Virus record (IMG/VR): IMGVR_UViG_3300040770_000293
Coordinates: 34,515-98,514 of that record
Length of the DNA stretch: 64,000 bases
Strand: one strand, 5' to 3'
Source of the DNA: a virus
Below the pieces are notes generated by a model, which made no database searches, was not told where the DNA came from, and saw nothing but the letters and a program-made list of their open reading frames with translations. The position numbers were made by a program, and so were the translations under genes. Positions within the stretch are counted from its first letter, which is position 1; every line of letters begins with the position of its first letter. Positions 6,237 to 60,831 of this stretch are shown here, in pieces.

Positions 6237-6267
6237 TTGCGGGAATAAAAAATAATGTATATATTTG
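6237..6267 (+). promoter_or_regulatory. Bacteroidota-type promoter with conserved upstream box (copy 2)
   Basis: TTG 6237-6239, 20-base spacer, TATATTTG 6260-6267. It is a near-identical copy (43 of 46 positions over 6225-6270) of the promoter region at 1477-1522 and starts the unit beginning at 6287. Confidence 0.87.
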
Positions 6268-6286
6268 TAAAATAAAACTAGAAACT

Positions 6287-7145: not shown

Positions 7146-7297
7146 TTATACTAACATTATTACTTGTACTGCTTACAGAGATTTATTTTAAACCTAGATT
7201 TCAGTATTTAGATGAGCCAAAGCTGTTTCTTATTTTTTATTCAGCAAAATCTAAAGAGGGCGCAAAAACTAGAAAAAGACTAATAATTAAATTATGA
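7142..7297 (+). CDS. Small single-pass membrane protein (51 residues)
   Basis: ATG 7142 overlaps the previous TGA and its own TGA overlaps the next start (7294). One N-terminal hydrophobic helix (about residues 2-15) is followed by a Lys/Arg-rich cytoplasmic tail. The double ATGA coupling is the best support for its being a gene. Confidence 0.65.
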   Translation: MIILTLLLVLLTEIYFKPRFQYLDEPKLFLIFYSAKSKEGAKTRKRLIIKL

Positions 7298-7695
7298 AAT
7301 TAGAATTAAAACATTTAGCACCTTATTTGCCTTATGGATTGAAAGGGTATTGCACAGATGATATGCAAGGCGAAGAAGTATTTTTAGGAATAGAAATAAA
7401 AAAGAGGCAAATACTTTTAATAACTGATAAACTACCTATGGATTTAGAGTACTTTAAACCAATCCTACGCCCACTTTCAGACCTTACAAAAGAGATTGAA
7501 GTAAATGGAGAAAAGTTTGTGCCTAGAAAAATATTAATTAGTCATTTTGATTTTTACTATTCAGATTTAAATAAATATGATTTAGATAAGTGGGAATATA
7601 GAGTAGTTGATAAACTACTAGAATGGCACTTCGATATTTACGGATTAATAGAGAACGGATTAGCAATTAATATAAATACATTAAACTATGAGTGA
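7294..7695 (+). CDS. Conserved-type Bacteroidota phage protein of unknown function
   Basis: 133 residues. The pattern KLELKHLAPYLPYGLK at the N-terminus, ILRPLSDL near residue 50 and WHFDIYGLIENGLAI near 108-122 recalls a widespread hypothetical protein of Bacteroidota phages and mobile elements (from memory). Its role is not known. It overlaps the next small gene by 8 bp. Confidence 0.82.
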   Translation: MKLELKHLAPYLPYGLKGYCTDDMQGEEVFLGIEIKKRQILLITDKLPMDLEYFKPILRPLSDLTKEIEVNGEKFVPRKILISHFDFYYSDLNKYDLDKWEYRVVDKLLEWHFDIYGLIENGLAININTLNYE

Positions 7696-7843
7696 TATAA
7701 CAAAGTGTAATCCGAAAAATTGCCCACTAAAAGAAATGTGTTACAGGTTTACTGCGCCTGCAGATGATATGTGGCAAAGTTATTTTGTGGAAACACCTTA
7801 TGATCAGGAGAAAAAAGAATGTAAATATTATTATAAAAGATAA
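7688..7843 (+). CDS. Small Cys-rich protein (51 residues)
   Basis: Cysteines near residues 7, 12, 18 and 45 (C-x4-C-x5-C with a late C) could bind a metal ion. ATG 7688 lies within the end of the previous gene and TAA is 5 bases before the next start. Probably a real early phage protein of unknown function. Confidence 0.65.
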   Translation: MSDITKCNPKNCPLKEMCYRFTAPADDMWQSYFVETPYDQEKKECKYYYKR

Positions 7844-7848
7844 AAATT

Positions 7849-8061
7849 ATGCTATTTAAAGATATAGAAGTTTATGGAGTTTCACTAACTGTTTGTTATG
7901 TTGAACATGGAAAATATATGCCCGCCACTGAATTAGACCCAGAGGAATTTGCTGAAATTGAGATTATTTCAATTTGTGCTCAAGATAGTAATATTGATTT
8001 GCAAAATGTTATAGATGAAACTTTTGTTGATTATATAGTAGAGGAATTACATGAGCGTTAG
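7849..8061 (+). CDS. Small acidic protein (70 residues)
   Basis: Starts in the AAAAATTATG context. The sequence is short and very acidic towards the middle and end. It overlaps the primase gene by 11 bp, suggesting a translational link. No motif recognised. Confidence 0.72.
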   Translation: MLFKDIEVYGVSLTVCYVEHGKYMPATELDPEEFAEIEIISICAQDSNIDLQNVIDETFVDYIVEELHER

Positions 8062-8962
8062 TTTTATTGACTCAGTGTCTTTTCAGTTTTTTCCTGCCCG
8101 AATTTGGGATGCTACTCCTCTTGGAGAATTAACTTTAAGGCAATTTTTAGACGTTCATAGAGAGCCAAAAGAATCTACGGTAAAAGTTATTGAAGAGATT
8201 AAAGAAGCAGCTAAAAACAATGATTTAAAGCTTAAGGATTCTCTAAAGCAAAATAATCTATATTCTTTTGTTCCGTCTGTTAAATTAGATGGTTTAGGTA
8301 GAGCGTATTCAAATGTTGTTGATTTTAATCCCGTAATGATTTGTGAGTTTGATAAAATTGACCACGCAAAAGAATTGAAAGAAAGGCTCTTTAATAATTT
8401 AAAATGTGTTATAGCTGCTTGGATTTCACCTTCAGGTAGAGGATTAAAACTTTTAATTCGTATAGAAAAACCTACTTCAATTGATAATTATAAAGAATAT
8501 TATTGTGGTTTGGCTTACTATCTATCTCAATATGAGGGTTTTGACCCAGCTAATTTCAACTGTTGTTTACCTTTATTCTTGTCTTACGATAAAGAGATAT
8601 TGATTAGAGAGGATGCAGAAGTTTGGACTCGACGAGGAGGTAAAATAAATGCTTTTCAAAATTATCATGGAGAATTTGAAATTCCCAACACTATTGATGA
8701 TGAAGTAAAACAAAGAATAATAAATAAAATAACATACTTAGTTGACAGAATTGATGACGGGGCACATCCAAAAATAAGAAGTATAGCAACTATTTTTGGA
8801 GGTTTTTGTTCCTATTACGGATTTTCCTTAGAAGATGCAGATAATTTAATTTGTGAGTTAATATCAAATAATAAGTATATGCAAAAAGACATAAGGGGTT
8901 ATTCAAAAACAGGTACAAGCTTTATAAGAAAAGGCATGTTGTCTCCTTTAGAATTGGATTAA
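8051..8962 (+). CDS. Primase-like protein with VirE_N/BT4734-type (archaeo-eukaryotic primase) domain
   Basis: 303 residues. The CEFDKID segment (about 97-103) and the SPSGRGLKLLIRI segment (about 127-139) are the acidic strand and the Ser-Gly-rich signature of the VirE N-terminal/BT4734-like family, related to the archaeo-eukaryotic primase superfamily. The C-terminal part (about 215-300) is helical, like the PriCT-type tails that follow such domains. Given the helicase and polymerase upstream, it probably makes replication primers, in place of a DnaG-type primase. The ATG lies inside the end of the preceding small gene. Confidence 0.75.
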   Translation: MSVSFIDSVSFQFFPARIWDATPLGELTLRQFLDVHREPKESTVKVIEEIKEAAKNNDLKLKDSLKQNNLYSFVPSVKLDGLGRAYSNVVDFNPVMICEFDKIDHAKELKERLFNNLKCVIAAWISPSGRGLKLLIRIEKPTSIDNYKEYYCGLAYYLSQYEGFDPANFNCCLPLFLSYDKEILIREDAEVWTRRGGKINAFQNYHGEFEIPNTIDDEVKQRIINKITYLVDRIDDGAHPKIRSIATIFGGFCSYYGFSLEDADNLICELISNNKYMQKDIRGYSKTGTSFIRKGMLSPLELD

Positions 8963-8965
8963 ATT

Positions 8966-8982
8966 TTGGCACGGTATTTGGT
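8966..8982 (+). promoter_or_regulatory. Possible sigma54-type (-24/-12) promoter
   Basis: TTGGCAC at 8966-8972, five bases, then TTGGT at 8978-8982. The -24 element is perfect and the GG-N10 spacing to the -12 element is correct, but the -12 GC doublet is GG here. It lies 4 bases after the primase stop and 37 bases before the ribbon-helix-helix gene. It has no primary-type TTG-N20-TAnnTTTG promoter. Confidence 0.45.
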
Positions 8983-8986
8983 ATAT

Positions 8987-8996
8987 TGTAATTACA
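8987..8996 (+). promoter_or_regulatory. Candidate operator palindrome
   Basis: TGTAATTACA is a perfect 10-base palindrome just downstream of the possible -12 element. The half ATTACA occurs again directly before the ATG of the ribbon-helix-helix gene (9013-9018). Small ribbon-helix-helix repressors often bind such sites near their own promoter, so autoregulation is a reasonable inference. Confidence 0.45.
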
Positions 8997-9018
8997 AACA
9001 TATTAAAAATTAATTACA

Positions 9019-9156
9019 ATGAAAAAAGAATTATTACAAATTAGAATTGATGAAGAATTATTAAATCAGTTAAAAGAATTAGCAGATTCAAATGCTATTT
9101 CTATTTCAGGTCAAGTTAGAATGCTAATTAAAAAAGCTGTTAGAGATGGGAAGTAG
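9019..9156 (+). CDS. Ribbon-helix-helix (Arc/CopG-type) DNA-binding protein
   Basis: 45 residues, the normal size for this fold. The beta strand is LLQIRIDEELLNQL (about 5-18), followed by two helices with the family-typical turn (SNAISISGQVRMLIKKAV). It would bind DNA as a dimer of dimers and probably represses its own promoter at 8966-8996. It stops with TAG, and its last 11 bases are shared with the start of the following endonuclease gene. Confidence 0.8.
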   Translation: MKKELLQIRIDEELLNQLKELADSNAISISGQVRMLIKKAVRDGK

Positions 9157-10150
9157 TCGGATTATTAATACAAAGATAGCTATAGAGGAATCCAAGGCTA
9201 TACACGGAAATAAATATGATTATAGCTTACTTGAATATATTAATTATACTATCCCTTTAAAAATAATCTGCAAAGAGCATGGAGTATTTAAACAAAAATA
9301 TCAAAAGCATTGTAAATTAGGAAGAGGTTGCTGGGAATGTGGAAAAAAATCTTGTATAGAGAATAGGTTAACTCTTACACAAGAGCTTTTAGTAGAAAGA
9401 GCTCATAAAATACATGATAATTTTTATAACTATGATAAAACCATATATAAAAATTACTCCGATAAAATCACAATTATATGTCCTATACATGGAGAATTTT
9501 TACAATTGGTTAATACACACCTACAAGGAGGTGGGTGTGTTAATTGTGGCAAAATAAAGGCAGGAAAAAGTAGAAGAGTTGGTAAAGTACATATTTTAAA
9601 TCTATTTACTAAAAAACATGGGGATTTTTACACTTATGAAATAGAGGAAGACTCTAAAACAGATGATATTATTAGTATTATATGCCCAATACACGGAAAA
9701 TTTAGTCAAATAGTTAATGTCCATTATTATTGTGGTTGCCCTAAATGTGGTAACGAAGTAATATCTAAAAAGTTAAGAAAAATACCAAAAGAATTAGATA
9801 ATCTATGTAATAATGTTAGAAGAAGAGTTAAAGGTTTTATAAAAGCAAAGGGATATAAAAAATCGTCTAAGACTTCAGAGATTTTAGGGACATCTTGGGA
9901 AAATTTAAAATTACACTTAGAAGATAATAATTATGGATTTTTAATAAATTCTAAGGGTATAGATGTAGACCATATAATTCCCCTATGCTCAGCAAAAACT
10001 GAAAACGATATTTATAAGTTAAATCATTATACAAATTTACAACTCCTCCCAAGTGAGTACAATCAGTTTATAAAATCAAATAATGATTTTAATAGATTGC
10101 ATTTTGAGACTTGGTTAAAAAATAACCCAATACCTATTGATAATGTATAG
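9146..10150 (+). CDS. Free-standing HNH homing endonuclease with Cys-containing repeats
   Basis: 334 residues. Three repeats of about 55-65 residues (roughly 10-70, 80-140, 145-205) each contain HGxxYDY-like, IxCxxHGxF and a GC-xx-C segment, a repeat type found in phage endonucleases (DUF723-like, from memory) and likely used for DNA recognition. The C-terminus has an HNH module: DVDHIIPLCSA near 272-282 and NLQLLPSEYNQ near 298-308. Such genes copy themselves into alleles lacking them by cutting. It begins inside the repressor gene and is probably a later insertion. Confidence 0.85.
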   Translation: MGSSRIINTKIAIEESKAIHGNKYDYSLLEYINYTIPLKIICKEHGVFKQKYQKHCKLGRGCWECGKKSCIENRLTLTQELLVERAHKIHDNFYNYDKTIYKNYSDKITIICPIHGEFLQLVNTHLQGGGCVNCGKIKAGKSRRVGKVHILNLFTKKHGDFYTYEIEEDSKTDDIISIICPIHGKFSQIVNVHYYCGCPKCGNEVISKKLRKIPKELDNLCNNVRRRVKGFIKAKGYKKSSKTSEILGTSWENLKLHLEDNNYGFLINSKGIDVDHIIPLCSAKTENDIYKLNHYTNLQLLPSEYNQFIKSNNDFNRLHFETWLKNNPIPIDNV

Positions 10151-10283
10151 TAAGGATTTTAAACAGAAGTATTTTTTACTTTGCCGAGAAAAAAAGTTAG
10201 AAATAAAAAAATATTCAGATTTACTTGCACAAGAAGTTAGAAAGCGTTATATTTGTAAAGTTATTAATATAAAAGAGATTTAA
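10143..10283 (+). CDS. Small basic protein (46 residues)
   Basis: ATG 10143 overlaps the end of the endonuclease gene and the TAA is 2 bases before the next ATG. Strongly basic and helical. The promoter at 10225-10255 lies inside this frame, so the codons there also serve as promoter sequence. Whether the peptide is made is uncertain. Confidence 0.5.
   Translation: MYSKDFKQKYFLLCREKKLEIKKYSDLLAQEVRKRYICKVINIKEI
10225..10255 (+). promoter_or_regulatory. Internal Bacteroidota-type promoter
   Basis: TTG 10225-10227, exactly 20 bases, TATATTTG 10248-10255: a perfect match to the promoter form used elsewhere in the window. It would restart transcription after the inserted endonuclease gene and serve the small genes from 10286 onward. 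Confidence 0.75.
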
Positions 10284-10285
10284 TT

Positions 10286-10384
10286 ATGCCATACGTAGGA
10301 GAAGAGGGTAATAAAGGATTGCCAATATGGATTATTATATTCTTTATTTGTTTAGTAATTTTTGGCGCAACAACATTAGTATAA
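10286..10384 (+). CDS. Tiny membrane protein (32 residues)
   Basis: ATG in the TTTAATTATG context about 30 bases after the promoter at 10225. The product is a short Gly-rich N-terminus followed by one hydrophobic helix (about residues 14-30). It could be a host-membrane-acting early peptide; there is no direct evidence for that. Confidence 0.5.
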   Translation: MPYVGEEGNKGLPIWIIIFFICLVIFGATTLV

Positions 10385-10387
10385 TTT

Positions 10388-10609
10388 ATGAAAACAGGTA
10401 CTTTTTATTGGGAGACAAAAGAATATCATCATGATAATACTTTCACTTTAAATGATTGGTTAGAAAATCAAATGGAAGAATTAGTAGAAATCACTTTACA
10501 AGACGGAGGTTATTGTGAAGTTACAAATGCCTTTGAAGAAAATTATTCTTTGATGGCTAGTGGTAATGGAAACAGTTTTAATCATCAAATTAAAATAAAA
10601 AAATTATGA
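10388..10609 (+). CDS. Unknown 73-residue protein
   Basis: Acidic small protein, no recognised motif. Its stop overlaps the next start (ATGA at 10606-10609). Confidence 0.75.
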   Translation: MKTGTFYWETKEYHHDNTFTLNDWLENQMEELVEITLQDGGYCEVTNAFEENYSLMASGNGNSFNHQIKIKKL

Positions 10610-10839
10610 AATTAGAAGACAAATTAAGACATTGTTTATTAGGACATTTATCAGATGATAATACAGAAACAGATGTTACTATTGCTTCTCTTATAGTTAG
10701 GGAATTTGCAGTTTCTTTTTCAGTTTTTGTTGCGGAAAATACTTTAACATATTCGGATGGAAAATACAGGACGCGAGACTTAATACCTACATGTAAAACA
10801 ACGGAAGAACTGCTCGAAATATATGAAGATGGGATATAG
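10606..10839 (+). CDS. Unknown 77-residue protein
   Basis: Coupled by ATGA overlap to the gene before it. The first 55 residues look like helices packed around a hydrophobic Ala/Val/Phe strand, followed by a short acidic tail. No function assigned. Confidence 0.75.
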   Translation: MKLEDKLRHCLLGHLSDDNTETDVTIASLIVREFAVSFSVFVAENTLTYSDGKYRTRDLIPTCKTTEELLEIYEDGI

Positions 10840-11011
10840 TTTATTTCAATTGGAAAGAAAGTATTTTAATCCATTAACTTATGTTGGAGAGGTTGGAAGT
10901 CAACTTGTAGAGAACTGTTGTATTCACTTAGGGACATTTGATACTTTAGAACAAGCTAAGTTAGAGCAAAGAGAACGTGATTTTAAAACAATAGTATTAG
11001 AAAGTTATTAA
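10823..11011 (+). CDS. Unknown 62-residue protein
   Basis: Two adjacent ATG codons are possible (10823 and 10829); the overlap with the previous gene is 17 or 11 bp. The sequence has aromatic residues and a vicinal Cys-Cys near residue 30. No family recognised. Confidence 0.7.
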   Translation: MKMGYSLFQLERKYFNPLTYVGEVGSQLVENCCIHLGTFDTLEQAKLEQRERDFKTIVLESY

Positions 11012-48145: not shown

Positions 48146-51046
48146 TTATTTTGAAAATCTTTTTGTTTTTATTCTCGATTTTGTTTGTGGGATTTCAAGT
48201 ACATTTTGAGTATTTGGAAAGAAGTACTCTTTTTCAGGTTTCATTAAAATTTGTTGACCTGTTTCTTGTGATATTCCTAATATATCATGAGGAATATTTT
48301 TCATTGTTATTGATCCATTAGTAGGTACAATAACCTCTTGATTTTGGTATTCGTACATTCCTTGTGAGCTTATTGGTATTGCCCCACCATCTTCTTTACG
48401 GTTTATCTTTCTCTCCTGTTTCAACATTTCTTTTGTTGGCTTTTTGCCTGAACCTCTGTTGGCTCTTATGTTTTTCCAGAGTGAGTTTTTTTCTCCTCCG
48501 TTTTTAAATTCTTCTTGCTGTGTTGCTAAATATGATGCTCCTGCTATTGGAACTATTGATTTGTATATATTAGGATTTGTCATGTCAAACATTCCGTTGT
48601 TTCCCCAAACAGACTTTAGATAGTTATTAGGTTTATGATTAAAAATAATTTCTTCTTTTATAAGCCCTGCGTCATCGACATTTTTTATTTTAGCGTAGGC
48701 AATATCATTTTTCTCTACGTATTTTGCAATATCATCGGTACTAACTCTTGATTTACTACTTATATCTTGAACGTTTTCTGGTAATAATTTTTTATCAATA
48801 TTTCTCCAATTGCTATTTTGTGCGTCAAGTAGGAAACTATTTTCACTTTTTGGATAGTAAAGCTCGTGCAAACCTCTTCTATATTTTTCTGATGCGCTTT
48901 TGAAAATTTTTTCTGGCGCATAACTTTTTTTAATACTTTCTTCATCTCCTGTAAAAACAGCTCCTTTTGTATTATCTTCATTTAATCTTCCCTTATAAGA
49001 TTTTTGAGACCAACTCCCTCTATATGTTTTATCAACCCCTCTAGGAAAAGCTTTTTTAAAGTTTTCACTATTCTGCTGTACAAATTGTTCGGGAGTTCCT
49101 TGAAACTTTGAACCATCAGGATTTTTCATCCAAGTTTTATTTGCTTTAGAAGTTTGTTCTATTGCATTATACTCTTGCATTAATTGGGGATTATCTGGAA
49201 TTTCTTTATTCCATTGACTCCAATTTATTTCTGATTTAAAAGTATCTGTGTCTGAAATACCTATTTTTCCTAATCCTAAAACTGTATTATCTCCTTGTTG
49301 TGTTGGCATTTTTTTATAACCTTGTAGCCAATCTTTTTTGTATGTTGTAATATTAGGATCATTTATAGATAAAGGTTCTTTAGACACTCTAACAGAAGTG
49401 TTTTCAGTTGTTAGCTTTCTTGTTCTGCCGTTTAATTTAGGAATGAACATTTCTTCTGGTAAATTAGCTTCAAATAAATAAGGTAAGTCTTTATTATCTT
49501 TATAGTATAAAGAACTTTTATTATAATAAGCGTCATCTCCAAACGACCTATTTAAATTAATAATTCCCTCCCCTTGAGTCATATCTACATCTTGTTTTCC
49601 TCTTATTATACCACTTTCTAATCCTTCATTATAAGTTGTATTATCAACTTGTCTATAAAATTTATCTGCAGAAGGTTTGAAGGCTTTAGGATTTAACTTA
49701 TAAGCATTAGGTAAGTATTTATTACCTAAATTATTTACTAAATCCCCTGTTCCTGCTAAAGGATTTGCCAAGTTATTTACAAATTGTCCTGTTGTTTGTG
49801 TACCTAACCCTGCTAAAGCTCCTACTGTTAATGGAGCTCCAATTGATGTTACATAAGGTAATACAGAATCTGATTGTTCTGCTTGTAAAGGAGCTTGTCC
49901 TAAATTACTTGCCATACTTCCTATCATTACAGCGGGATTTAAATAATCATCAAAAAAATTAGGTTCATTTGAAACTCTTAATTTATCTCCTGTTGCATTT
50001 GTTTCTGCTGCTAATTGCTTTCTCCAATTTTCTTTTGTGTAGGGTGTTTTTTGCGCTTCTACACTTGTTTGTATTTTTACTTCTCTTTCTTGTGCAATTT
50101 CTTTATCTGTTTTATTCCTTACATTTGGATTAAACAGTCTTGAGTTGTTATAATTATTTACCTTAGTGTTTTCTGTTGCAATGTTACTCCTTTCGTCTTG
50201 TAATTGAAAAGGTTTTTTCTTAAATTGTGAAACACCGCCTCTTTGAAACATTTGTCCTTCTTGAGGCTCTTCAAATGTAGGTTGTGATTGATAATCAGCA
50301 GGATTTACGTAAGCTACCTGTGTAGCTAAAATCATTTGTTGTAGTAAAGCTTTTTCTGTTTTTTTCTGCTCTAACCTGTTTTTAATTTCTGTTGCTTTAT
50401 CTTCTGCTAAATTAGTGGTTTCTTGTGTATTATCCAAACTACTTATATTTTCACTTACTTGTGGAGCGTAGTAGTCTGTTTTTTTGTATTCGCTGAATCT
50501 ATAAGGGTCATTCTGTTGTGTTTCTTCTTGAGTGTTTTGTGTAGGAGCGCTATTTTTAGTGACTTTATAGTTCAACGTGTCATAAACTTCTTTTGCCGTT
50601 TTAACTGTTCCATCTTTTCTTAAAAAAATAGGTTTATTAGCATTTATCTGAGCAGTTGTAGCTACTTCATAAGCGGATGCGTTTGGATTATTTCTTAAAG
50701 TTGATAATAATTTAGATGCTCCTCCAACTCCCATAAAATGTGCAGCGTATAAATCTGTATTATTTGGTGTAATACCTAAATTATTTTTTAAATAATTTGC
50801 ATTTTCCTGAGTATAAAGTTCAGCTACTTTTCTTGATTTTTCTGGGTCAAATCTATCCTCTAAATTATAAGATAAATTATACTTTTTAGTAAGCCCTTCC
50901 CAAGTAGATTTTATAAACTGAAACTTGCCACTAGCACTTGAAGTTTTACTTCTTGCTTGTGAATTATTATTACTCTCTATTTCAGAAAGCCTTGTGTAAT
51001 AATTTGGGTCTATGCTTCCTCCATTTTTATACTCTTTAAACCTCAT
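48146..51046 (-). CDS. Cargo protein: lytic transglycosylase plus ADP-ribosyltransferase-like regions, 966 residues
   Basis: Residues about 15-115 are a lysozyme-like transglycosylase domain: RLSEIESNNNSQARS with a candidate catalytic Glu, then SASGKFQFIKSTW and ITPNNTDLYAAHFMG. It should cut peptidoglycan during DNA entry. Residues about 425-560 include FYRQVDN and LESGIIRG, and about 615-820 include KTYRGSW, AVFTGDEES, LHELYYP and NNGMFDMTNP. Both look like ADP-ribosyltransferase-fold toxin-like modules, though weakly supported. Four GG motifs occur near 9, 267, 847 and 884. Preceded by an endonuclease gene overlapping its start. Confidence 0.7.
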   Translation of the reverse strand: MRFKEYKNGGSIDPNYYTRLSEIESNNNSQARSKTSSASGKFQFIKSTWEGLTKKYNLSYNLEDRFDPEKSRKVAELYTQENANYLKNNLGITPNNTDLYAAHFMGVGGASKLLSTLRNNPNASAYEVATTAQINANKPIFLRKDGTVKTAKEVYDTLNYKVTKNSAPTQNTQEETQQNDPYRFSEYKKTDYYAPQVSENISSLDNTQETTNLAEDKATEIKNRLEQKKTEKALLQQMILATQVAYVNPADYQSQPTFEEPQEGQMFQRGGVSQFKKKPFQLQDERSNIATENTKVNNYNNSRLFNPNVRNKTDKEIAQEREVKIQTSVEAQKTPYTKENWRKQLAAETNATGDKLRVSNEPNFFDDYLNPAVMIGSMASNLGQAPLQAEQSDSVLPYVTSIGAPLTVGALAGLGTQTTGQFVNNLANPLAGTGDLVNNLGNKYLPNAYKLNPKAFKPSADKFYRQVDNTTYNEGLESGIIRGKQDVDMTQGEGIINLNRSFGDDAYYNKSSLYYKDNKDLPYLFEANLPEEMFIPKLNGRTRKLTTENTSVRVSKEPLSINDPNITTYKKDWLQGYKKMPTQQGDNTVLGLGKIGISDTDTFKSEINWSQWNKEIPDNPQLMQEYNAIEQTSKANKTWMKNPDGSKFQGTPEQFVQQNSENFKKAFPRGVDKTYRGSWSQKSYKGRLNEDNTKGAVFTGDEESIKKSYAPEKIFKSASEKYRRGLHELYYPKSENSFLLDAQNSNWRNIDKKLLPENVQDISSKSRVSTDDIAKYVEKNDIAYAKIKNVDDAGLIKEEIIFNHKPNNYLKSVWGNNGMFDMTNPNIYKSIVPIAGASYLATQQEEFKNGGEKNSLWKNIRANRGSGKKPTKEMLKQERKINRKEDGGAIPISSQGMYEYQNQEVIVPTNGSITMKNIPHDILGISQETGQQILMKPEKEYFFPNTQNVLEIPQTKSRIKTKRFSK

Positions 51047-51866
51047 TTTTATTTTGTTTTATTTCAGATATACTTTTAATTCTTATTAAACCACTTTTAT
51101 ATTTTTTTCGGGTTTGATTATAGTTTAAGCCTAACTCTCTACATGCTTCGGCTAAAGACTTAAACTTCCTATTGGTAATTTCATCAAAGCAAGTAAACTC
51201 TGAACTACGAATATCTTTTTCAGCGTAATCAAAAGACCTATATCTACCTTTTTGCAATACTCTATTTTTTTCAACTCTGTATCCTATTTTAAAATATCTA
51301 CATCCTTCCGCTAAACTTTTAAAATACTGCCCTGTAATAATATGATAACAACCTCTAGTAATATGATTATTTTTAGAGTATCGCTTTTCCATCTCTTCTA
51401 ATGTAACTTCTCGTCCTTTTAAAGCTTTACTCAATTTACTTCTTGTTTCTTGTGAAACTATTACATTAGAATTTACATCACTTATTTTCTTTTTGGTCTC
51501 TTCAGTATGTTTTTTACCATAAAAAGGATTTTTACAACCCATCATTTGATCTCTCCTAACTGCTCTTTGATCTTCAGTTATCTCTACACCTATTGTTCCT
51601 TCTCCACCATTTGTCATATTTACTAAAGTGCCTAATCCTAAATCTCTTCTACCATATAATTTTATAAACTCTTTCTCCTTTTCTTTGATAAATTCATAGT
51701 CTTCATGTTCAAAAATTATTTCAACTTCATAAAGAGTTTTTGATATTATATTATTCCACCAATTACTCCTATCTTTTGTTGCATAAGCTCTTATTTCCTT
51801 TGCTCCTATACCAATGTAAAAAACTTCATTAGTATCTAATCTAATATGTCTATAAACTACTACCAT
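51036..51866 (-). CDS. GIY-YIG homing endonuclease with NUMOD3 and NUMOD1 repeats
   Basis: 276 residues. The GIY-YIG pair appears as VVYRHI and VFYIGIGA (about 3-22). A NUMOD3-type NPFYGKKHTEETKKKIS segment lies near 113-129, and two NUMOD1-type repeats with F-K-S-L-A-E (about 180-225 and 235-270) follow. The stop falls inside the start of the next gene. It sits between a truncated lysozyme gene and a second gene with a similar leader, so it is a mobile element which appears to have damaged its neighbour. Confidence 0.9.
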   Translation of the reverse strand: MVVVYRHIRLDTNEVFYIGIGAKEIRAYATKDRSNWWNNIISKTLYEVEIIFEHEDYEFIKEKEKEFIKLYGRRDLGLGTLVNMTNGGEGTIGVEITEDQRAVRRDQMMGCKNPFYGKKHTEETKKKISDVNSNVIVSQETRSKLSKALKGREVTLEEMEKRYSKNNHITRGCYHIITGQYFKSLAEGCRYFKIGYRVEKNRVLQKGRYRSFDYAEKDIRSSEFTCFDEITNRKFKSLAEACRELGLNYNQTRKKYKSGLIRIKSISEIKQNKNEV

Positions 51867-51867
51867 T

Positions 51868-52050
51868 TTATATTTGCTTGCTATCAGCCTTACCTACAAC
51901 TGTTGTGTCAAAGGCTGATTCCGCAGCTAAGTTCCCAACAATACCTGCAGCTTGTATTGCAGGCACTCCTTTTTTAAGATAATAGTTGTAAGCATATACT
52001 TTTTTATCTCCTGAAGTTTTTCCTCCCTCTTTATATTCTTTGTACCTCAT
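51868..52050 (-). pseudogene. Remnant of a tail lysozyme gene (60 residues)
   Basis: The N-terminus MRYKEYKEGGK is a leader like that of the 966-residue protein. YNYYLKKG...QAAGIVGNLAAESAF (about 22-47) is the start of a phage tail lysozyme domain, including the Glu of the ESxF motif. The domain should continue for over 100 residues, but a stop comes after residue 60, directly at the start of the homing endonuclease gene. No remaining part was found downstream. Confidence 0.72.
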
Positions 52051-52985
52051 TATTCTGGTTTTTCATTAGCTACTCCAAACCTGTAAACGTATTGGAATTG
52101 TGTTTCTACATCTTGAGTTAATCTTACATTTGCAAACATACCTTTTATGTTCTCAAGTACCGATTTTCCTTTAAACTTTACTACATTTGTATTTATAGTT
52201 TTATTTATTTGATTTTCATCCCATAGCCACAATGGCTTGTTTTGATTATTGTCTACAACTCTATTATAAAAGTAATTTACAAACCATTGCTCTTCTTTAT
52301 GAGTTGTTAATATTTCTTGACTTTTACCATTTATTGCGGTTTTGGGATACTTGTTTATAAGACTTGTTTGTCCTGTATTATTTACAAGTCTTAACTCACC
52401 ACTGTTAGCTAAATTATTATATATTGTTATAGCTGACATAGGTTTATTTTCTATTTCTGCCCAATCATGTTCATCGTGGTATCTTCTAGTATTTAGATTA
52501 AAGTTTATAGAGTTTACAACTTTTGAAGTTAATGCTGTTTTTGTTGTGTAATCTATTATGAAAGGATACTTTTTACCATAGAAAACTTGATAAGATTGAT
52601 TTGTTAGTAAGTGACTCCACAACCCTTTTTCAAAAGAAGTGTTTGAATTGTTTATTCCTGTTTGGAAATAGTTTTGATGATTTAGATAATAGTTTGGAGC
52701 AAAGCTATAATAACTTATCCACTTTTCTAATACAGGACTATAAGCTACTGTAAAACTTACATCCTTAAAATATATAGGATTTGTAAGTTCTATTGGTATT
52801 TTTATTTCAGTTACTGTAGGTTCAACACTTTCTATGCATTCACATACAGCGTTTCCGTTAGGTAGTATCACTGTGTCACAACCTTCTGGACAAGATATAT
52901 TTTGTATAGTAGTTGTGCAATTACAGTATACTATACTATTTATAGTTTCTTGAGTACAATTTATATTGGGGCAGTTACAAGCCAT
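52050..52985 (-). CDS. Detached C-terminal domain of the tail muzzle protein, 311 residues
   Basis: The first 55 residues are Cys-rich (CNC, NC, CNC, C-x3-C, CEC). The rest carries the series expected at the end of crAss-type muzzle proteins: YFKDVSFTVAYSP, KWISYYSF, LWSHLLTNQSYQVFYGKKYP (about 121-140), YNNLANSGEL and NVRLTQDVE. In most relatives I remember, this region is fused to the giant protein; here it is a separate gene 9 bases downstream. It should sit at the distal tail and contact receptors or the cell wall. The Cys-rich start could hold it to the muzzle. Confidence 0.78.
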   Translation of the reverse strand: MACNCPNINCTQETINSIVYCNCTTTIQNISCPEGCDTVILPNGNAVCECIESVEPTVTEIKIPIELTNPIYFKDVSFTVAYSPVLEKWISYYSFAPNYYLNHQNYFQTGINNSNTSFEKGLWSHLLTNQSYQVFYGKKYPFIIDYTTKTALTSKVVNSINFNLNTRRYHDEHDWAEIENKPMSAITIYNNLANSGELRLVNNTGQTSLINKYPKTAINGKSQEILTTHKEEQWFVNYFYNRVVDNNQNKPLWLWDENQINKTINTNVVKFKGKSVLENIKGMFANVRLTQDVETQFQYVYRFGVANEKPE

Positions 52986-52994
52986 AGTTACTTT

Positions 52995-55900
52995 TTAACA
53001 GGGTGATAAATTACTAAATAAAGTTATTGATTGAACTACTCCTAAATTTAACGTTACAGCTACAGAAGTACTAGGCAATGATATTCCTCCTCCACCACCT
53101 ATCACAGTTGTATTTTGAATTCCATTTATATCTGAAGTATATACAATTCCTGTTAAAGTTATTGGACTTAATCCAAAATATAATTGTTGCCCTACTTGTA
53201 AAGGTAATGAATTTATTTCAAATGATGTATTAGTAATAGCTTTCGCTTCTGAATTTTGCATTATACACTTTATTTCTTGAGTAGTTTTATCTAAAAAGCT
53301 AGTGGTAACTAGAGAAGAGCCTTCTGATAAACCTGTTATAAAATTAAGATTTACTGAGCAATCAGCTAATGTAGTTGTTAATAAGGTACATGTTTGATTT
53401 TGTTCATCATATATGTAACCACTAGGACATAAGCTACCACTAACAACTACTTTTTCACACATTTGTGTTTGTGAGTTATATATGTAATCTGAAGGGCACT
53501 CTATTACTGCTGGAATAATTCCACACTTAGATTGATTAAATAAAAATCCCTCTTCTTTAGAGTATTCTATACAATCATTTAATGGTAGGTAGTCTTTCTT
53601 AGTTAAGAACATTCTATTAAACCTACTGTCCCATCCCATAGTGATACCTATACCATTACAAGCATTATCTGTGTCTACTCCCTTTATTCCTATCTTAAAT
53701 GGTAAGTGCTCCTTAAACCAATTTCTTAGATTACTTTCATAACCTGATATTTCAACTGGAGTTTTACCACCAACTGTTTGCATAACTTGCCCTCTTTTTG
53801 CATCCACATGGAAATGCCCATACTCTGAAGATACACTTTCTGAACTTTGAGTCCCTCCAAATCCTAATTCTGTTTGAAAATAGGTTCTAGGCTTATTTCT
53901 AGTGAAAATACCAGTATTTCCAAAAACATTGTCATTTTGAAAAACTCCTTGTACTGCTATATCGGTTGAATTAAAATATGCTACAGTATTTTCAAACCTA
54001 CCTAGTATTACTTCGTTTTCTATCCCTTTTAACTCCTTTAATTTACCATACGGTGTAGGAAACTCGTAGAAATCATTTGCTCTAAAAACTAGCCACGGAT
54101 CAGCTTGACCTGTTTCTGAATTGTCTTGCAAACTATATCTTACCCCATTAGGACTTTTTGACTGTCTTTCTGCTTCAAAAGTTGTATAATTATTTGGAGT
54201 TGTTTTATAAAATAGTTGTACTGCCTGTTTTTTATATTGTTCGTTGTAAAAAAATGTATTTGGTTTTTTTATTGATACATTATTCTCTTGAGTCCAATCT
54301 ACATGATCCCCTATGTTAGGGTAGAAATCATTTTCAGGCTCTTTCCTTGCGGCTCTATAGTTAGTATTAATTTCTGTTTCTGTAAGCATTCCAGGTATTC
54401 CGTAGTAATATAAATAAAACTTACTTGGTGGTTTTACATACATATCTCTATTACCTGCTAAACTATCAAAATTATAACTACTGTCAAAATCTGGAAATAT
54501 AATATTACCTCTGCTAAAATCTCCTGTTATTTCATAATCACCAAAAAATCTTGCTTTTCTTCCTATGTTTGTATATTTTCTGTAGTCGAATGGTGTTAGG
54601 GAAGCTATTCCCATAGCGTCAGTTACAAATAACGGCATTTTTCTTTTTAAGTGATACCTTGTTATAAAAGTATCTCCTCCAAGAATACTTATACAGTTAC
54701 TAGAAGGATTTTTTAAATCTCCTCTGTATCCTGTATTAATCCAAGAAATGCTATTTATACTCCCATATTGTGCAGGATTATAATTTTTTAATTTTACGTA
54801 AGGTGAAGCAATATTTTTGATTATGTCATTACTCCTACCTTCAATTTCTGAATTAGATTCACTGCCGTAAGTCAAGCTAGAAAGATTTCTATTTAAGTTT
54901 CCGTTATCATATCCTCTGTACTCTTCTTCCCAAGTTAAGGGGAAATCTTTTCCTAAAGATATAAATGTGCTGTGTTCTCTGTCTAAATTATTTATTTCTA
55001 ACTTTTCTCCATCTGTTTCATTAACTGTGGTGTAATTACCTGATTTTAAATTTTTACCAATATTTATACTTCTTAAAACATCTCCTTCTTCTTGCAGTGT
55101 TTTAATGTAGTTATAGTGTCCTTTAGAAGAGTACTTATAAGCAAAGTTTTTAGGGCTTCCTAAATCTTTAAACGTTTTTAGCCACTCATATCTGTATCTA
55201 CCTATTTGAGAAACTGATCTTAAGGCTGTAGTTGTGGCTGCTATTGTAGCTAATATTATACCTCCAACATTAACACTGTTAGAAAGTCCAAAAGTAACTC
55301 TAAAATTTTCTCCAGATTCTGCTATACGTATAGCTAATTCAGAAGCAGCTTCTATTATTGCTAAAGTTGTTGCTGTTGATTTTGCCTTTCTGCCTAATAT
55401 TACCCATTTAGGATGATCGTGTACGTCCACAAAATTACCACTGGATTTTCCAAAAATATATCCTTCCACTTTTAATTCAGAAGGTACTGTTAATTTCTTA
55501 AAATCTGTTTCTGGTGAGTGAAATGTGAAGTTATAGTTACTTTGACTATTGTGTGATATTAAAGAATTATTATCATTTAAGTTTAACTTATCTGCACCTA
55601 AATCATTATAAGGATAGTTAGAGTATAATATATCTTTGTTATCTTCTTGATACTTTCTCATATCAAATAGATACCCTGAGGCTTCTATACTTTTATTAGC
55701 TGTTCTATCTCCTCTAAATATTTCATAACTAACTACACTATCTTTTTGTTCTTGAGTTATTAATTTATTTTTTACCGCAATTTTTAAAAAAGTGTTAATA
55801 ACTTTCTCATCAATAGTTATACCTAAAGGAAATATAGTACTTGCTGAAAAACTAGAAAGTGGGTTATCCCACATAAAAGGTGCTACCTTATTATCTGGAA

Positions 55901-58679
55901 ACTTAAAATGTCTTATAGGCTCACATCTAAAATCTGTACTATCTACTAAATTATAATTACCTGAAATAGTTCCATTGGTAAAGTAATCTTCAAATTCTAA
56001 CCTCTCATTTAAATCTGAAAAATCTTGAGGTTGTATATTTAATACTTTAGAATTATACAATTCTATATTGTCTGGATAGGTCTCTAAACTTTCTACGTAA
56101 GCAAAAGTTCCTTTCTTATAAGGTAAAGATATACAATTTTGAACTTGTGGTAATTCAAAACTACATTCTGAAGTATAAGTTTGTCTTTTGTTTAAAACTA
56201 TTGATGTGTACGTAACATCAACTCTGCTGTAAGTTATATCTCTAGTCACTACAGAAAAACAACCTTTAGTTGGAGCTACTATAAATCTAGTTACATCATC
56301 TTGCCCTGTGACTTGTCTTATAGGACAATCAATAGCTACTATAAAAGTTGTACTATTATATACTCCTAAATTAGTTTCTGCATTATCACCTACTTTTATA
56401 AATAAGCTTCCTGCCGATAACCTTAATTTGTATTGTTCTCCTTCTGATAAATCTACAATTTGACTATATAATGGTGCTGCTGTTCCACAGTTATTATAAA
56501 GGGATAATCTTACTAAAGTTCCTGAAGAAATGCTATCTGTTGGTGTTTCTGGTAATTTTTGTTTTGTTACTTCTAAAATTAATTCTTGTTTAGTTACAAA
56601 GTTTCCCTTGTACCATAAAGCCCCTTTATGTATTTTATTTGTAAATTCTGATGATAAAGACGTTGCATTTTTTGTTGTCTGTAATTCGCTTGAAGTGTTT
56701 GCTCCATAGTACATAAAGTACTGACTAGATAGGGGAGGTGTATTTGCAGATATGTTTTGTATATCTTCTGGAGTATTACATATAGTGTTTGAGAATACAG
56801 ACTCTCTTTTATATACAAATTTATTAATAAATGCTATGTCTTTAGTGTACAACTCCCTAAACTCTTCATCTTTTACTAGAGCTCCATCAACTTGACTTGT
56901 AGCGGAGACCTGACAATAATTTAAAGGTATTATTTTAGCATAATCTAAAGGGAATATACTCGGTATTTTTTCTGAATTTTCTCCTGTAATTGTTTTTAAA
57001 GATAATTTTTCAGATAATAATATTGGTGCAGAACATTCTGAATCAAATATAGGCACACTGTTTTGATTTGTATAGTCTGTAATATCTAGATATTCACAAA
57101 AAGGATATTCAAAACATTCTTCAAAACTGTCTTCAATAAGTTCTGAAAGGTTTTCATATTCTTGTGTGTCAAAAAGTGAAAAAGTCGCTCCTAGAATAGT
57201 TACAACATTTTCAATAGTTGAAGTTTTTTCAATTGATTCTATTATAGTTGTAGTAGGAACATTTTCATTTAAACATACACCCGTCTCTTTTGCATCATTA
57301 TAAAACTGCCATCTTTTTAATCTATCTGTAGTTGTACAATTTACTTTGTTTGCTTCTATGGATAACCTATCTTTATTATTACTTGCTACTTCTGTTAAGT
57401 CTTCTTCTGTAGCTTGTCTTCCTATTAAAGGATATACGGGTGTTTTATACCCTGTATTTGTTTGGAACTGTATTGCTAGAGGATATACTTCATCTCTGTT
57501 ATATCCTTTTTTGCCGTTGTTTACTCCACTTTCGTAGAAATTTTCAGAAGCTATAGAAGTTTGCCATTTAGCAAATTGTCCTATAAAGTTTACTACAGGT
57601 TGTAAATTCCACTCCTTTTCTGATTCTAGTCCATATAAAAATAAAGCATTATTAGACACTGCCAATGCTTCGGCTTTTTTTACTTCTGTGTTTACTTTTA
57701 AAAGTTCAACTAGAGTGGTTGCCTTTTTATTTTGTTGAGTTGTATAAACTACACTGTTGTCGTCAATAGTATGTAAACCCTCTATAAAATAAGTTTGAGC
57801 GTTATTTGTATTCTGTATAACTGCAATCTTATAGTGAGTGTATTGTTTGTCCAAACCTTCTACTTTTAATTTTATAGCAAAGTTTGTTCTTTCAGATACT
57901 TCACTTGAAGCTTCCTGAACTGTATTGTTCTCATCAAATATTGATACTTGTTGAGTTAGTGAGTAATATTGAGATAACTCATTTCCTGCTTCATCTGAAT
58001 AAGCTATTAGGAATTGATAATTTCCTTCTGTTAGACTCCCTCCTTGATCTATTGATGTTGGCGTTAAGTCAGGTATAGCGTGCTTTTTAAAGATCCTCAT
58101 CTTGTCTGCATTGAAGCATTTAACTTCTTCTACAGGTTCTCCACAACTTATAGTTTGACTATTTATGTATTGAGATAGTTTGTTTATTTCAATGTAACGT
58201 GGTTCATTTCTATTATCTGTAAAATATATTATTTTTACTCCTTTTTCATTTTTTATTGCGCACTTTTTTATTGGGAAATTAATATTAAAATTAAATCCAT
58301 TGTTGCAAGCGTCATTAAGTAACGTGGTGTAAGTTTGTAATGGTTGTTGTACTGTATTTTCAAGAGGTTGAGCTATTTGTATGTTATTCTCAAATCCTTC
58401 AAGTTTTCCAAACTCTCCTTCTCCTGTAATAGGATTTGTTAAAAATACAAAAGTTGTACTTGAATCAATATCTACTTTACCCCCTATAAATTTAAAGCCT
58501 AATTTAAATCTAGTTGCTAGTAAATTACTCTGCTCATTAGATAAACTGAAAAAATCCTCTGATGAATTTTCCAAGTTGGCATTCATTGCAAAGGAGTATT
58601 CTGTATTTTCTAATTCTAAAGGGTTTTTTCTAGACATTCCTTTTTTAGGAATATTTAAACTTTTTATTGGTTTTTCCAT
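52995..58679 (-). CDS. Tail muzzle (P22 gp10-like stabilisation) protein, 1894 residues
   Basis: The N-terminal block NPLELENTEYSFAMNANLE and FSLSNEQSNLL (about 19-55) is the hallmark of the crAss-type stabilisation/muzzle family. The middle is beta-rich with many Asn/Tyr/Thr. GWDSRFNRMFLTKKDY lies near residue 1680, where relatives continue into a C-terminal domain. Here about 200 different residues follow, including two CPSxYIYxxQxQxC repeats and a Gly/Ser-rich end, and the usual C-terminal domain is encoded next door. Forms the end of the short tail. Confidence 0.88.
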   Translation of the reverse strand: MEKPIKSLNIPKKGMSRKNPLELENTEYSFAMNANLENSSEDFFSLSNEQSNLLATRFKLGFKFIGGKVDIDSSTTFVFLTNPITGEGEFGKLEGFENNIQIAQPLENTVQQPLQTYTTLLNDACNNGFNFNINFPIKKCAIKNEKGVKIIYFTDNRNEPRYIEINKLSQYINSQTISCGEPVEEVKCFNADKMRIFKKHAIPDLTPTSIDQGGSLTEGNYQFLIAYSDEAGNELSQYYSLTQQVSIFDENNTVQEASSEVSERTNFAIKLKVEGLDKQYTHYKIAVIQNTNNAQTYFIEGLHTIDDNSVVYTTQQNKKATTLVELLKVNTEVKKAEALAVSNNALFLYGLESEKEWNLQPVVNFIGQFAKWQTSIASENFYESGVNNGKKGYNRDEVYPLAIQFQTNTGYKTPVYPLIGRQATEEDLTEVASNNKDRLSIEANKVNCTTTDRLKRWQFYNDAKETGVCLNENVPTTTIIESIEKTSTIENVVTILGATFSLFDTQEYENLSELIEDSFEECFEYPFCEYLDITDYTNQNSVPIFDSECSAPILLSEKLSLKTITGENSEKIPSIFPLDYAKIIPLNYCQVSATSQVDGALVKDEEFRELYTKDIAFINKFVYKRESVFSNTICNTPEDIQNISANTPPLSSQYFMYYGANTSSELQTTKNATSLSSEFTNKIHKGALWYKGNFVTKQELILEVTKQKLPETPTDSISSGTLVRLSLYNNCGTAAPLYSQIVDLSEGEQYKLRLSAGSLFIKVGDNAETNLGVYNSTTFIVAIDCPIRQVTGQDDVTRFIVAPTKGCFSVVTRDITYSRVDVTYTSIVLNKRQTYTSECSFELPQVQNCISLPYKKGTFAYVESLETYPDNIELYNSKVLNIQPQDFSDLNERLEFEDYFTNGTISGNYNLVDSTDFRCEPIRHFKFPDNKVAPFMWDNPLSSFSASTIFPLGITIDEKVINTFLKIAVKNKLITQEQKDSVVSYEIFRGDRTANKSIEASGYLFDMRKYQEDNKDILYSNYPYNDLGADKLNLNDNNSLISHNSQSNYNFTFHSPETDFKKLTVPSELKVEGYIFGKSSGNFVDVHDHPKWVILGRKAKSTATTLAIIEAASELAIRIAESGENFRVTFGLSNSVNVGGIILATIAATTTALRSVSQIGRYRYEWLKTFKDLGSPKNFAYKYSSKGHYNYIKTLQEEGDVLRSINIGKNLKSGNYTTVNETDGEKLEINNLDREHSTFISLGKDFPLTWEEEYRGYDNGNLNRNLSSLTYGSESNSEIEGRSNDIIKNIASPYVKLKNYNPAQYGSINSISWINTGYRGDLKNPSSNCISILGGDTFITRYHLKRKMPLFVTDAMGIASLTPFDYRKYTNIGRKARFFGDYEITGDFSRGNIIFPDFDSSYNFDSLAGNRDMYVKPPSKFYLYYYGIPGMLTETEINTNYRAARKEPENDFYPNIGDHVDWTQENNVSIKKPNTFFYNEQYKKQAVQLFYKTTPNNYTTFEAERQSKSPNGVRYSLQDNSETGQADPWLVFRANDFYEFPTPYGKLKELKGIENEVILGRFENTVAYFNSTDIAVQGVFQNDNVFGNTGIFTRNKPRTYFQTELGFGGTQSSESVSSEYGHFHVDAKRGQVMQTVGGKTPVEISGYESNLRNWFKEHLPFKIGIKGVDTDNACNGIGITMGWDSRFNRMFLTKKDYLPLNDCIEYSKEEGFLFNQSKCGIIPAVIECPSDYIYNSQTQMCEKVVVSGSLCPSGYIYDEQNQTCTLLTTTLADCSVNLNFITGLSEGSSLVTTSFLDKTTQEIKCIMQNSEAKAITNTSFEINSLPLQVGQQLYFGLSPITLTGIVYTSDINGIQNTTVIGGGGGISLPSTSVAVTLNLGVVQSITLFSNLSPC

Positions 58680-59566
58680 TATTTACCGTAAGCAAATTGC
58701 TGATATATGCTGTTTCTTCTTTTGTGATTTGCTGCTAATTCTTTCCACCATTTTCCTCCCATACCTTCAAATTTGGCGGCGGTCATAGCATTTGAAAATT
58801 TATCTGCAGATTCTTGTTTCCAATACATTAACTTATTTTGAACATCTGGATCATCTCCATTAGTCCATAAGTTTTCATATATTTTTTTCTTTAGCTCTGC
58901 CACTACATATTCATAAACATAGTTACCCATTACTTCTGGAATTATCAAGTCATCTGTGCCTTCTTCAGTTGGTAAGCCTTGGTATTGAATGTAAATAAAA
59001 CCCTTATTAAAATTAGTTTGTATATATTCTCCTAGTATGTTTATTTCATAGGGGCAAGAATTTGTTAAGTTTTTTTGCAAATTCAAGTTGTTTCCGCAAA
59101 GCCTTTCTTTTTTAAATCCTCTTGTTAACTTTAATAGTTGAGGATTTTTGTATTTAAATTCTACTTGAGTTCTTCCATCGTGAAAAAATAATTTTTCTGT
59201 TATTTCTGTAAATTCTCCTGTTTTAAAATCATCTGCTAAATTATCCCAGTCTCTTTTAGCTTCTATTCTTACTCTATATTGATAAATATTTTGTAAAGTG
59301 TCTTCGTCCTCTTCTCCACATAACACTTCACTTTTATCTGGAATGCATTTTGCCGCTAAAAACAATGAATAAAAGTTTTCAGGCAATTTAGCCATTCCAT
59401 TTTTAACTTCCACCACTTTGTCAACCTTTGGCATAATATTCCCTCCAAACTTTAATAAGGCGTTCTTAGTCCATAAGTTTAAAGATATAGTATCTATTAA
59501 CCCACTTTCATTATATTGTTTTAAATCTGTTAAAACCTCCGCTATAAGTTGATTACGTGTTGTCAA
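58679..59566 (-). CDS. Tail ring protein, P22 gp4-like
   Basis: 295 residues. Fits the ring/tail-tubular family under the portal: an N-terminal helical part (about 1-45), a beta domain with LPENFYSL (about 58-65), a GFIYIQYQGLP segment (about 188-198), and a C-terminal helical region after IPEVMGNYVYEY (about 207-218). Its position between the IHF-like and muzzle genes matches the gene order in crAss-like phages. ATG is used at 59566, overlapping the IHF-like gene by 14 bp. Confidence 0.82.
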   Translation of the reverse strand: MTTRNQLIAEVLTDLKQYNESGLIDTISLNLWTKNALLKFGGNIMPKVDKVVEVKNGMAKLPENFYSLFLAAKCIPDKSEVLCGEEDEDTLQNIYQYRVRIEAKRDWDNLADDFKTGEFTEITEKLFFHDGRTQVEFKYKNPQLLKLTRGFKKERLCGNNLNLQKNLTNSCPYEINILGEYIQTNFNKGFIYIQYQGLPTEEGTDDLIIPEVMGNYVYEYVVAELKKKIYENLWTNGDDPDVQNKLMYWKQESADKFSNAMTAAKFEGMGGKWWKELAANHKRRNSIYQQFAYGK

Positions 59567-60179
59567 TGTTTTGTTTTTTTATTACGTCTACTGTGTATGT
59601 TCTATTTCCGTGTAGGTTATGTAACAGTGAGAAATTCATTTTATATCTTTTTCCTTCACTTAATAATTGTGACATTATTCTTGTAGTGTAGTATTTATGA
59701 AAGGCTCTTTCCATTACCCACTCTTTTAGTGCTGTATCTTTCCTTATAGGTATAAATGTTATACTGTGAGGGAAACCTTTAGTCTGAAAGTTCATGTACT
59801 TTTTTTTCTTTCCTTGTACAAACCCTTCCATTACTCTTCTTTGCGGATACCTTACTATGCAGAAATATCCAAAATTCTTAATAAAAACTCCTGCTTCATT
59901 TCTAACTGTTCTTTCTGCTATTGTTTTTAGAGTTTGGTATATTATTTCAAAGGTTTGTTTTTTTGTAAATCCTTTTTCTTTTAGATTTAAAGTTTTTTCT
60001 AAATGTTGAATTAATTTTTTATTAGCTCTTAAATCTACAGTATTTACGAATGTTTTTTTGTAAACTTCTTTGTTCTCTGCGTCAGGTTGTTTTCTTTTTA
60101 CGTGATTGACATTTTTAGGATTGTTTTTTGAATGTCTAAAAACTCTCTTTTCTCCTTTCGTGTATTTAGCTACCTTCAT
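59553..60179 (-). CDS. IHF-like virion-associated DNA-binding protein
   Basis: 208 residues. After a basic N-terminus (about 1-45) comes a helix pair and the HU/IHF signature GVFIKNFGYFCIVRYPQRR (about 97-115). The C-terminal 60 residues are extra. crAss-like phages carry IHF-like genes between ring genes, and they occur in the tail region of the particle. Likely structural rather than a classic nucleoid protein. Overlaps the previous gene by 14 bp. Confidence 0.8.
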   Translation of the reverse strand: MKVAKYTKGEKRVFRHSKNNPKNVNHVKRKQPDAENKEVYKKTFVNTVDLRANKKLIQHLEKTLNLKEKGFTKKQTFEIIYQTLKTIAERTVRNEAGVFIKNFGYFCIVRYPQRRVMEGFVQGKKKKYMNFQTKGFPHSITFIPIRKDTALKEWVMERAFHKYYTTRIMSQLLSEGKRYKMNFSLLHNLHGNRTYTVDVIKKQNIDNT

Positions 60180-60831
60180 TTAAGTTAGGGTTTTGATCTT
60201 CTTGCACTTGCTTCGATAGTACTACTTCTTTTATAGTTTCTGAGATAACAACTTCCATTAATTTGTCACTGCATATAAAATCGTAATCCCAAGCTGATTT
60301 GCAATTACTTTCTTTGCACGAGGATAATTCATCAAGGTCAAATAAATCTAAAGTTATTAGGGAAACATTTACTATTTCTACTTCTGTATCTGGTATATAT
60401 AAATAATTATCTTTTATATAAAAATATAAGTCTTTTGATGCGTCTTTTCTTTGTTTATTTAATCTGTATTGTGCAAGAGTAATAGGTTTTATCAAGTGTT
60501 CTCCATCTAATGAAGTAACTTCTTTTATACTTGAGCCAAACTTACTGTAAATTAGTTCAGGTAGTTTTTTCTTAGACTGCATTAACTGTTTACAAGTTCT
60601 AAACTCTATAATAGGGCAATCAATAATATCTATTTTTTTTAATTCAAAACAGTTTAAACTTGACAATAAGTTATCTTCTCTATATATTGAGTTTTCTCCT
60701 GCTTTTTGAGATATAAAAAACTTTGCTTTTTCTTGTCCTACTTTTAAAATAAAACGGCGTGAAATCATAGAGTCCTTACTTAAAGACTTTAGTCCGTTTA
60801 ACACTCTTGATACAAATTCTCGATTATTCAT
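60166..60831 (-). CDS. crAss-type ring (head-tail joining) protein
   Basis: 221 residues. The N-terminal helix pair (about 5-40) and the beta segments IDCPIIEFRTCKQLMQSKKKLP (given in parts: IDCPIIEFRTC, then LMQSKKKLP), LYFYIKDNYLYIPDTEVE, followed by a C-terminal helix, resemble the first ring protein of crAss-like tails. It is first in the neck/tail unit after a terminator. Assignment is from memory of gene order and sequence pattern; other head-tail joining proteins remain possible. Confidence 0.68.
   Translation of the reverse strand: MNNREFVSRVLNGLKSLSKDSMISRRFILKVGQEKAKFFISQKAGENSIYREDNLLSSLNCFELKKIDIIDCPIIEFRTCKQLMQSKKKLPELIYSKFGSSIKEVTSLDGEHLIKPITLAQYRLNKQRKDASKDLYFYIKDNYLYIPDTEVEIVNVSLITLDLFDLDELSSCKESNCKSAWDYDFICSDKLMEVVISETIKEVVLSKQVQEDQNPNLNEGS

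Follow-up and report, generated by a model that had tools for sequence, protein, structure and literature searches.

A crAss-like phage tail muzzle gene split in two at a slot for exchangeable domains

On the minus strand of the DNA shown here, the gene for a giant tail muzzle protein stops short of the usual C-terminal domain, which follows directly as a small gene of its own. This raises the question of whether the gene is broken, whether the stop is an error, or whether the muzzle is built from two chains. On the sequence evidence below, the split is real, recurrent, selected and located at a domain slot, and is not an error. We assign a probability of about 0.7 to the reading that the two genes encode one two-chain tail muzzle with a recurrently swapped adhesin slot, its propeller being completed by the small chain.

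The muzzle locus and its two pieces

The window (the whole stretch of 64,000 nucleotides analysed) is part of a 98.5-kb IMG/VR virus record, and its minus strand carries a crAss-like structural gene block. Relatives are referred to by L numbers and called split or intact according to whether the muzzle is in two genes or one. The main features are as follows.

60166-60831, minus strand: CrAss_Ring_2, structural block (Pfam/PHROG profile matches)
59553-60179, minus strand: HU/IHF-like protein, structural block
58679-59566, minus strand: CrAss_Ring_1, structural block
52995..58679, minus strand: large muzzle piece, 1894 aa, comprising the conserved core, the upstream Cys-rich hinge and the cassette (crAss_MUZ PF25731; phrog_37948 positions 7-1741)
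53589..58679, minus strand: conserved muzzle core up to TKKDY, residues 1-1697 (alignments and a tree of 52 cores)
53358..53588, minus strand: upstream half of the Cys-rich hinge, with CPxGY repeats and 7 Cys (shared with intact L004, L020 and L086, partly with L029)
52998..53357, minus strand: variable cassette, about 120 aa, of no Pfam family (no blastn match to L003)
52986..52997, minus strand: junction, read from the sequence, with the TAA stop at 52995-52997 and a 9-bp A-rich spacer at 52986-52994
52050..52985, minus strand: small muzzle piece, 311 aa (phrog_37948 positions 2047-2287, E 4e-58)
52818..52985, minus strand: downstream half of the Cys-rich hinge, 9 Cys, at the N-terminus of the small piece (same module within the intact L086 chain)
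52053..52778, minus strand: conserved muzzle C-terminal domain, residues 70-311 (alignments; dN/dS 0.07 versus L003)
48146-51046, minus strand: SLT transglycosylase-type gene, after a NUMOD3-bearing homing endonuclease

The large piece matches the Pfam family crAss_MUZ (PF25731) at 115.5 bits, against a curated cut-off of 27 (E 3e-33). The small piece, which begins MACNCPN and contains YFKDVSFTVAYSP...RLTQDVE, has no Pfam match, but it continues the 2289-position family PHROG 37948, of which the large piece covers positions 7-1741 and the small piece 2047-2287, in order. Because this family spans both, the pieces are consecutive parts of what is one protein in relatives, including the one-piece muzzle of Cellulophaga phage phi17:2. 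The neighbourhood agrees with that of other crassvirus muzzle genes, which lie after ring protein 1 and before cargo-type genes: here CrAss_Ring_1 and CrAss_Ring_2 adjoin, and cargo-type genes, one of them of the SLT transglycosylase type, come after. The initial annotation had described the C-terminal domain as a separate gene, and the two open reading frames together with the coverage of PHROG 37948 confirm it.

After the small piece lies a 60-aa stub (51868-52050, minus strand) of a tail/cargo-type protein that is 367 aa long in L003. Across 51036-52050 (minus strand) the stub leads directly into the NUMOD3-bearing homing endonuclease, followed by a different transglycosylase-type gene, and the arrangement looks like an endonuclease-linked replacement of a gene. 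Two relatives, L007 and L009, have HNH-related sequence before as well as after the small muzzle gene, which is thus bracketed.

The junction and its recurrence among relatives

The junction reads CCC TGT TAA AAAGTAACT ATG GCT, and the two open reading frames lie in one frame, separated by the stop and three codons. It was therefore necessary to exclude a lone nonsense codon or readthrough, that is, a TAA that is a sequencing error or a fresh nonsense mutation, or one that is read through to give a protein of ~2200 aa. We find this scarcely credible. The window record is identical over 20,726 bp to a second IMG/VR contig that keeps the stop, although that contig may derive from the same sample; L003, which is 82-85% identical in DNA, has the same stop and 9-bp gap but a different cassette. 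The gaps of other split relatives measure 10-41 bp (for example 10, 11 and 13 bp) and fall in all frames, and the gap of L005 is 673 bp and holds an HNH endonuclease gene. Since gap length varies in this way (10-41 bp or 673 bp), frame is not kept across relatives, and with neither gap length nor frame conserved a readthrough or frameshift that joins the pieces is rejected. The shared frame of the window is a matter of chance. The homologous start Met of the small gene, together with C3, is invariant in 10 of 10 aligned split genes. An alternative genetic code (TAG=Q or TGA=W) leaves the frames unjoined, as the separating stop is TAA, which is not recoded here; no tRNA genes were found within the window. 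The frameshift or sequencing error that, according to the initial annotation, would refute it is thus removed by L003, by the identical contig and by the frames of the other gaps.

Both parts are under purifying selection. Simple NG86 estimates of dN/dS relative to L003, with dS near 1 in places, are 0.10 (core), 0.23 (N-terminal module of the small gene) and 0.07 (C-terminal domain of the small gene).

We compared gene models in relatives sampled from viral contigs and cultured phages. Of the 52 distinct cores, 18 belong to split muzzles and 34 to intact ones, which also disposes of the suggestion that relatives might always be split. On the core tree the state switches seven times or more, and a shared origin for all splits is rejected (best all-splits-together tree, p-AU 7e-9, on a quick tree). 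Split and intact forms are found side by side: the window and L003 with L004, L081 with L029, L094 with L096, and L035/L040 with L037/L039. The last two are intact within an otherwise split group and carry a 45-aa remnant slot with two cysteines, which suggests that they lost a cassette and then re-fused. No relative was found among GTDB genome contigs when these were searched with the small-piece alignment.

The muzzle varies elsewhere too. L037 encodes an intact muzzle of 3073 aa (1502-10720) with a core ~1000 residues longer than in relatives, and internal DNA repeats around 3500-5000 mark another variable muzzle region. In L045 the small piece (9872-10933) has an extra Cys-containing stretch of ~70 aa inside the C-terminal domain, after FQTGVNS, which is a second insertion site.

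The Cys-rich hinge and the exchangeable cassette

The break lies in a slot between the motifs TKKDY and YFKDVS. In most crassvirus muzzles this slot spans 32-45 residues and is cysteine-free, except in L037/L039. In the wider group of the window it is a Cys-rich hinge that flanks a variable domain. The upstream half of the hinge consists of CPxGY repeats, in which the cysteines that precede the cassette usually number 7 and vary in count between relatives, and the downstream half is a 9- or 7-Cys module that ends in C.C and is followed by an E.P motif; two of its cysteines are missing together in the 7-Cys form. Matches of the chitin-binding family CBM_14 to the CPxGY repeats span about 20 residues only and are treated as motif similarity.

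The intact relatives reveal where the two Cys-rich ends come from. L029 has hinge elements in a single chain with no cassette, and in L086 a DUF5122 propeller sits between the two hinge halves within one intact chain. The small gene starts with the same module as the downstream half in L086 (CEQCEQPC..CNC..CIGDC..CTC), and because this module sits inside an intact chain, the N-terminus of the small gene is inherited. It had been taken as new, but the 9-Cys module of L086 and the shorter forms in L029 and L004 show that it is not. Likewise, the CPSxYIY repeats at the end of the large piece had been regarded as gained there, but they are not a gain: CPxGY-type repeats are also present in intact L004, L020, L029 and L086.

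It is plausible that the Cys-rich ends relink the two pieces by disulfides, since the hinge halves are continuous in intact relatives and each window half has an odd number of cysteines (7 in the upstream hinge and 9 downstream, with 2 more in the cassette), although odd counts do not reveal which cysteines pair. Disulfides are known to stabilise the tail of phiCrAss001 (PMC10172136). The 59-aa N-terminal module of the small gene also departs from its C-terminal domain in identity: the module is the more alike of the two between some distant lineages (63 versus 53% between the window and L008, 54 versus 40% between the window and L040) and the less alike in near relatives (55 versus 91% for L023 and L025). 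This contrast points to exchange of the N-terminal module as well.

The real variable element at the break is the cassette that follows the repeats in the large piece, which the initial annotation had overlooked. Window positions 53001-53387 have no blastn match to L003, and the flanks are 82-85% identical. Joint alignment identifies the window cassette as a remote relative of the L003 and L008 cassettes. A single-sequence search with the cassette of L003 gives a match to that of L008 (E 2e-10; core 47% identical) and none to that of the window (core 83% identical). Different inserts between flanks about 77-86% identical are found in the pairs L002/L003, L008/L011 and L025/L027. The DNA of L002 and L003 is 82% identical as far as the cassette; alignment resumes, at 85%, 23 bp ahead of the small gene, and nothing aligns in the interval. 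L008 and L011 follow the same pattern, at 80 and 76%. The part of L025 that holds the repeats and PKD can be aligned, at 79%, to a third, separate gene in L027. Such a third, stacked cassette gene, starting with a Cys-rich module and CPxGY repeats, is present in L027 and L040. L040 also has a nucleotidyltransferase-like open reading frame (2842-3198; weak NTP_transf_2/Polbeta matches) between the large piece and the extra cassette gene.

Intact forms contain VWA (L010 and, weakly, L015), VWA_4 (L030) or DUF5122 (L086) by Pfam; the vWA region of L015 has close counterparts in L004 and L020, and L032, L033 and L038 appear PA14-like by eye, with no Pfam support. Split forms contain PKD_5 with or without LRR, DUF11 with DUF285, Fib_succ_major, a weak Lcl_C, or no Pfam domain, as in the window, and also include small Ig-like cassettes. 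Several of these domain types are common in Bacteroidota surface proteins, and the cassette, a domain of adhesion type, may bind surfaces. Filled slots of about 330-370 aa with no Pfam match also occur in the intact muzzles of two cultured phages, Cellulophaga phage phi17:2 (L057, 9050-10033) and Flavobacterium phage FpV4 (L060, 7897-8994), which are possible model phages for the slot.

A proposed two-chain muzzle and its alternatives

The structure of the phiCrAss001 muzzle, gp44 (PF25731; PDB 7QOK, 7QOL), which has a homologous core and probably the same C-terminal domain, provides a frame for placing the small chain. Muzzles of this family are hexamers at the tip of the tail, and the gp44 fold comprises ring-joining, propeller, IG1, IG2 and crass domains. 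PDB searches with the single sequence of either piece found no muzzle; a family profile matched the phiCrAss001 muzzle alone (E 4e-4), with weaker segments in colinear order. In this comparison the C-terminal domain corresponds to roughly residues 1190-1303 of the 1371 in gp44, a match that is colinear but weak and not significant alone. IG2 with the crass domain occupies residues 318-1021 of gp44 (PMC10172136), so that, by elimination, the chain after 1021 comprises the propeller and ring-joining parts. We also built AlphaFold2 models of the C-terminal region, in which the window chain was read through the stop as a modelling device only, and of the small piece, with mean pLDDT of 59 and 70, that is, modest confidence. 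The sole significant Foldseek match of each was the phiCrAss001 muzzle (7QOL/7QOK), at E 6.6e-7 for the C-terminal region and 3e-6 for the small piece, with low TM-scores. The models suggest that the small chain probably supplies the last propeller blades and/or ring-joining strands, and that the slot is probably a loop of this region.

We propose that the 32-45 aa linker of most crassviruses became, in the group of the window, a Cys-rich hinge carrying an exchangeable adhesion-type domain. Where the cassette is compact (vWA, DUF5122 propeller, PA14-like), the chain would continue through it. Where it is extended or its ends are widely separated (strings of PKD/Ig, solenoids of LRR or DUF285), its C-terminus would be freed by a stop followed by a new start, and the rest of the muzzle would be a separate small protein starting with the downstream hinge half. 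This small chain would dock to complete the propeller and the ring-joining region, and the Cys-rich halves would probably join the chains covalently in the virion. The split would recur because the slot is a recombination site at which cassettes are swapped, stacked or lost, and homing endonucleases beside the small gene may help to move them in some lineages. The compact-versus-extended rule fits most cases in a modest sample; exceptions are split L081 and L025, with vWA-like regions behind PKD strings, and the split muzzle of the window, whose cassette is small.

A different history is that of genes in pieces, in which a homing endonuclease inserted into the muzzle gene, broke it and was later lost in most lineages, the cassette variation being secondary. 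Such breaks are known for the phage Aeh1 NrdA, the T4 topoisomerase and the phage 25 DNA polymerase (PMC2988022), and endonuclease genes are indeed near at hand: an HNH gene between the pieces in L005 with same-sized inserts in L007 and L009, HNH genes (phrog_953) that immediately follow the small gene in L007 (8984-9736), L008 (8996-9754) and L009 (8982-9740), and, in the window, a GIY-YIG gene separated from the small gene by 184 bp. Both fragments are under selection, as noted above. However, most split loci have a 7-41 bp spacer without an endonuclease, the window only a 9-bp gap; splits arise on several branches and every time at the same cassette boundary; and because intact L086 carries the same modules, this boundary predates the break. 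We therefore consider this history rather unlikely as the cause of the split. Less likely still is that the small protein has left the muzzle for a separate decoration or cargo-type role while the large piece works without it. It has its own gene and start, and sequence alone does not demand a muzzle location, but its C-terminal domain is as constrained as the core, it always adjoins the large gene, in intact relatives it is part of the single chain, and every split locus seen among the relatives has a small piece. The fused homologues, the purifying selection on both parts and the conserved start of the small gene make it well supported that both products still form one muzzle. For the two-chain muzzle, endonucleases may aid cassette movement, by analogy with the 'HEG islands' of other phages, where such genes border exchanged regions (PMC10448857); as there, they adjoin the exchanged segment in some muzzle relatives, but what is exchanged here is a single protein domain and no island of >10 kb, and the endonuclease role is putative.

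The proposed two-chain muzzle differs from gp44 in its two chains and in the Cys-rich hinge with an exchangeable cassette. Variation in muzzle length by insertions was noted before (PMC10172136), but those insertions were named in the crass or IG2 regions, and the slot described here is near the C-terminus. Like the genes in pieces reviewed earlier (PMC2988022), it is an essential phage protein made from two genes, with an endonuclease at the break in some relatives; unlike them, it is a virion structural protein, its split recurs at one slot with cassette exchange, and the break in the window has no endonuclease. BACON/Ig-like repeats in crAssphage tail proteins, with a proposed host-binding role (PMC6949934), are likewise domains of Bacteroidota type that the tail genes of crassviruses have gained, exchanged and repeated. 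The passages on them place them in tail-associated ORFs and describe neither the muzzle nor gene splitting. We found no account of split muzzles or of vWA cassettes in muzzles in the literature covered, most subscription journals being outside that coverage.

The muzzle is the gate that is thought to pass DNA and cargo proteins on ejection, and contact with the cell has been suggested for its exposed crass domain. Rather than a broken gene, the split looks like a durable means of swapping a surface part, and its natural recurrence indicates that two or three chains apparently suffice to build an assembly of roughly 1 MDa. More tentatively, the gate protein may have become a docking port: its interrupted propeller would be completed by a second chain and secured by cysteines, and adhesin cassettes would be plugged in, stacked (L027, L040), removed, and moved from one lineage to another by recombination and homing endonucleases; if so, it would be a modular receptor-binding system within the tail gate. 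Natural pairs with and without a cassette (L035/L040 versus L037/L039; L094 versus L096) make the role of the slot testable. The slot marks where these phages place and exchange adhesion-type domains, which would help in studying how hosts are recognised in a group of which few members are in culture.
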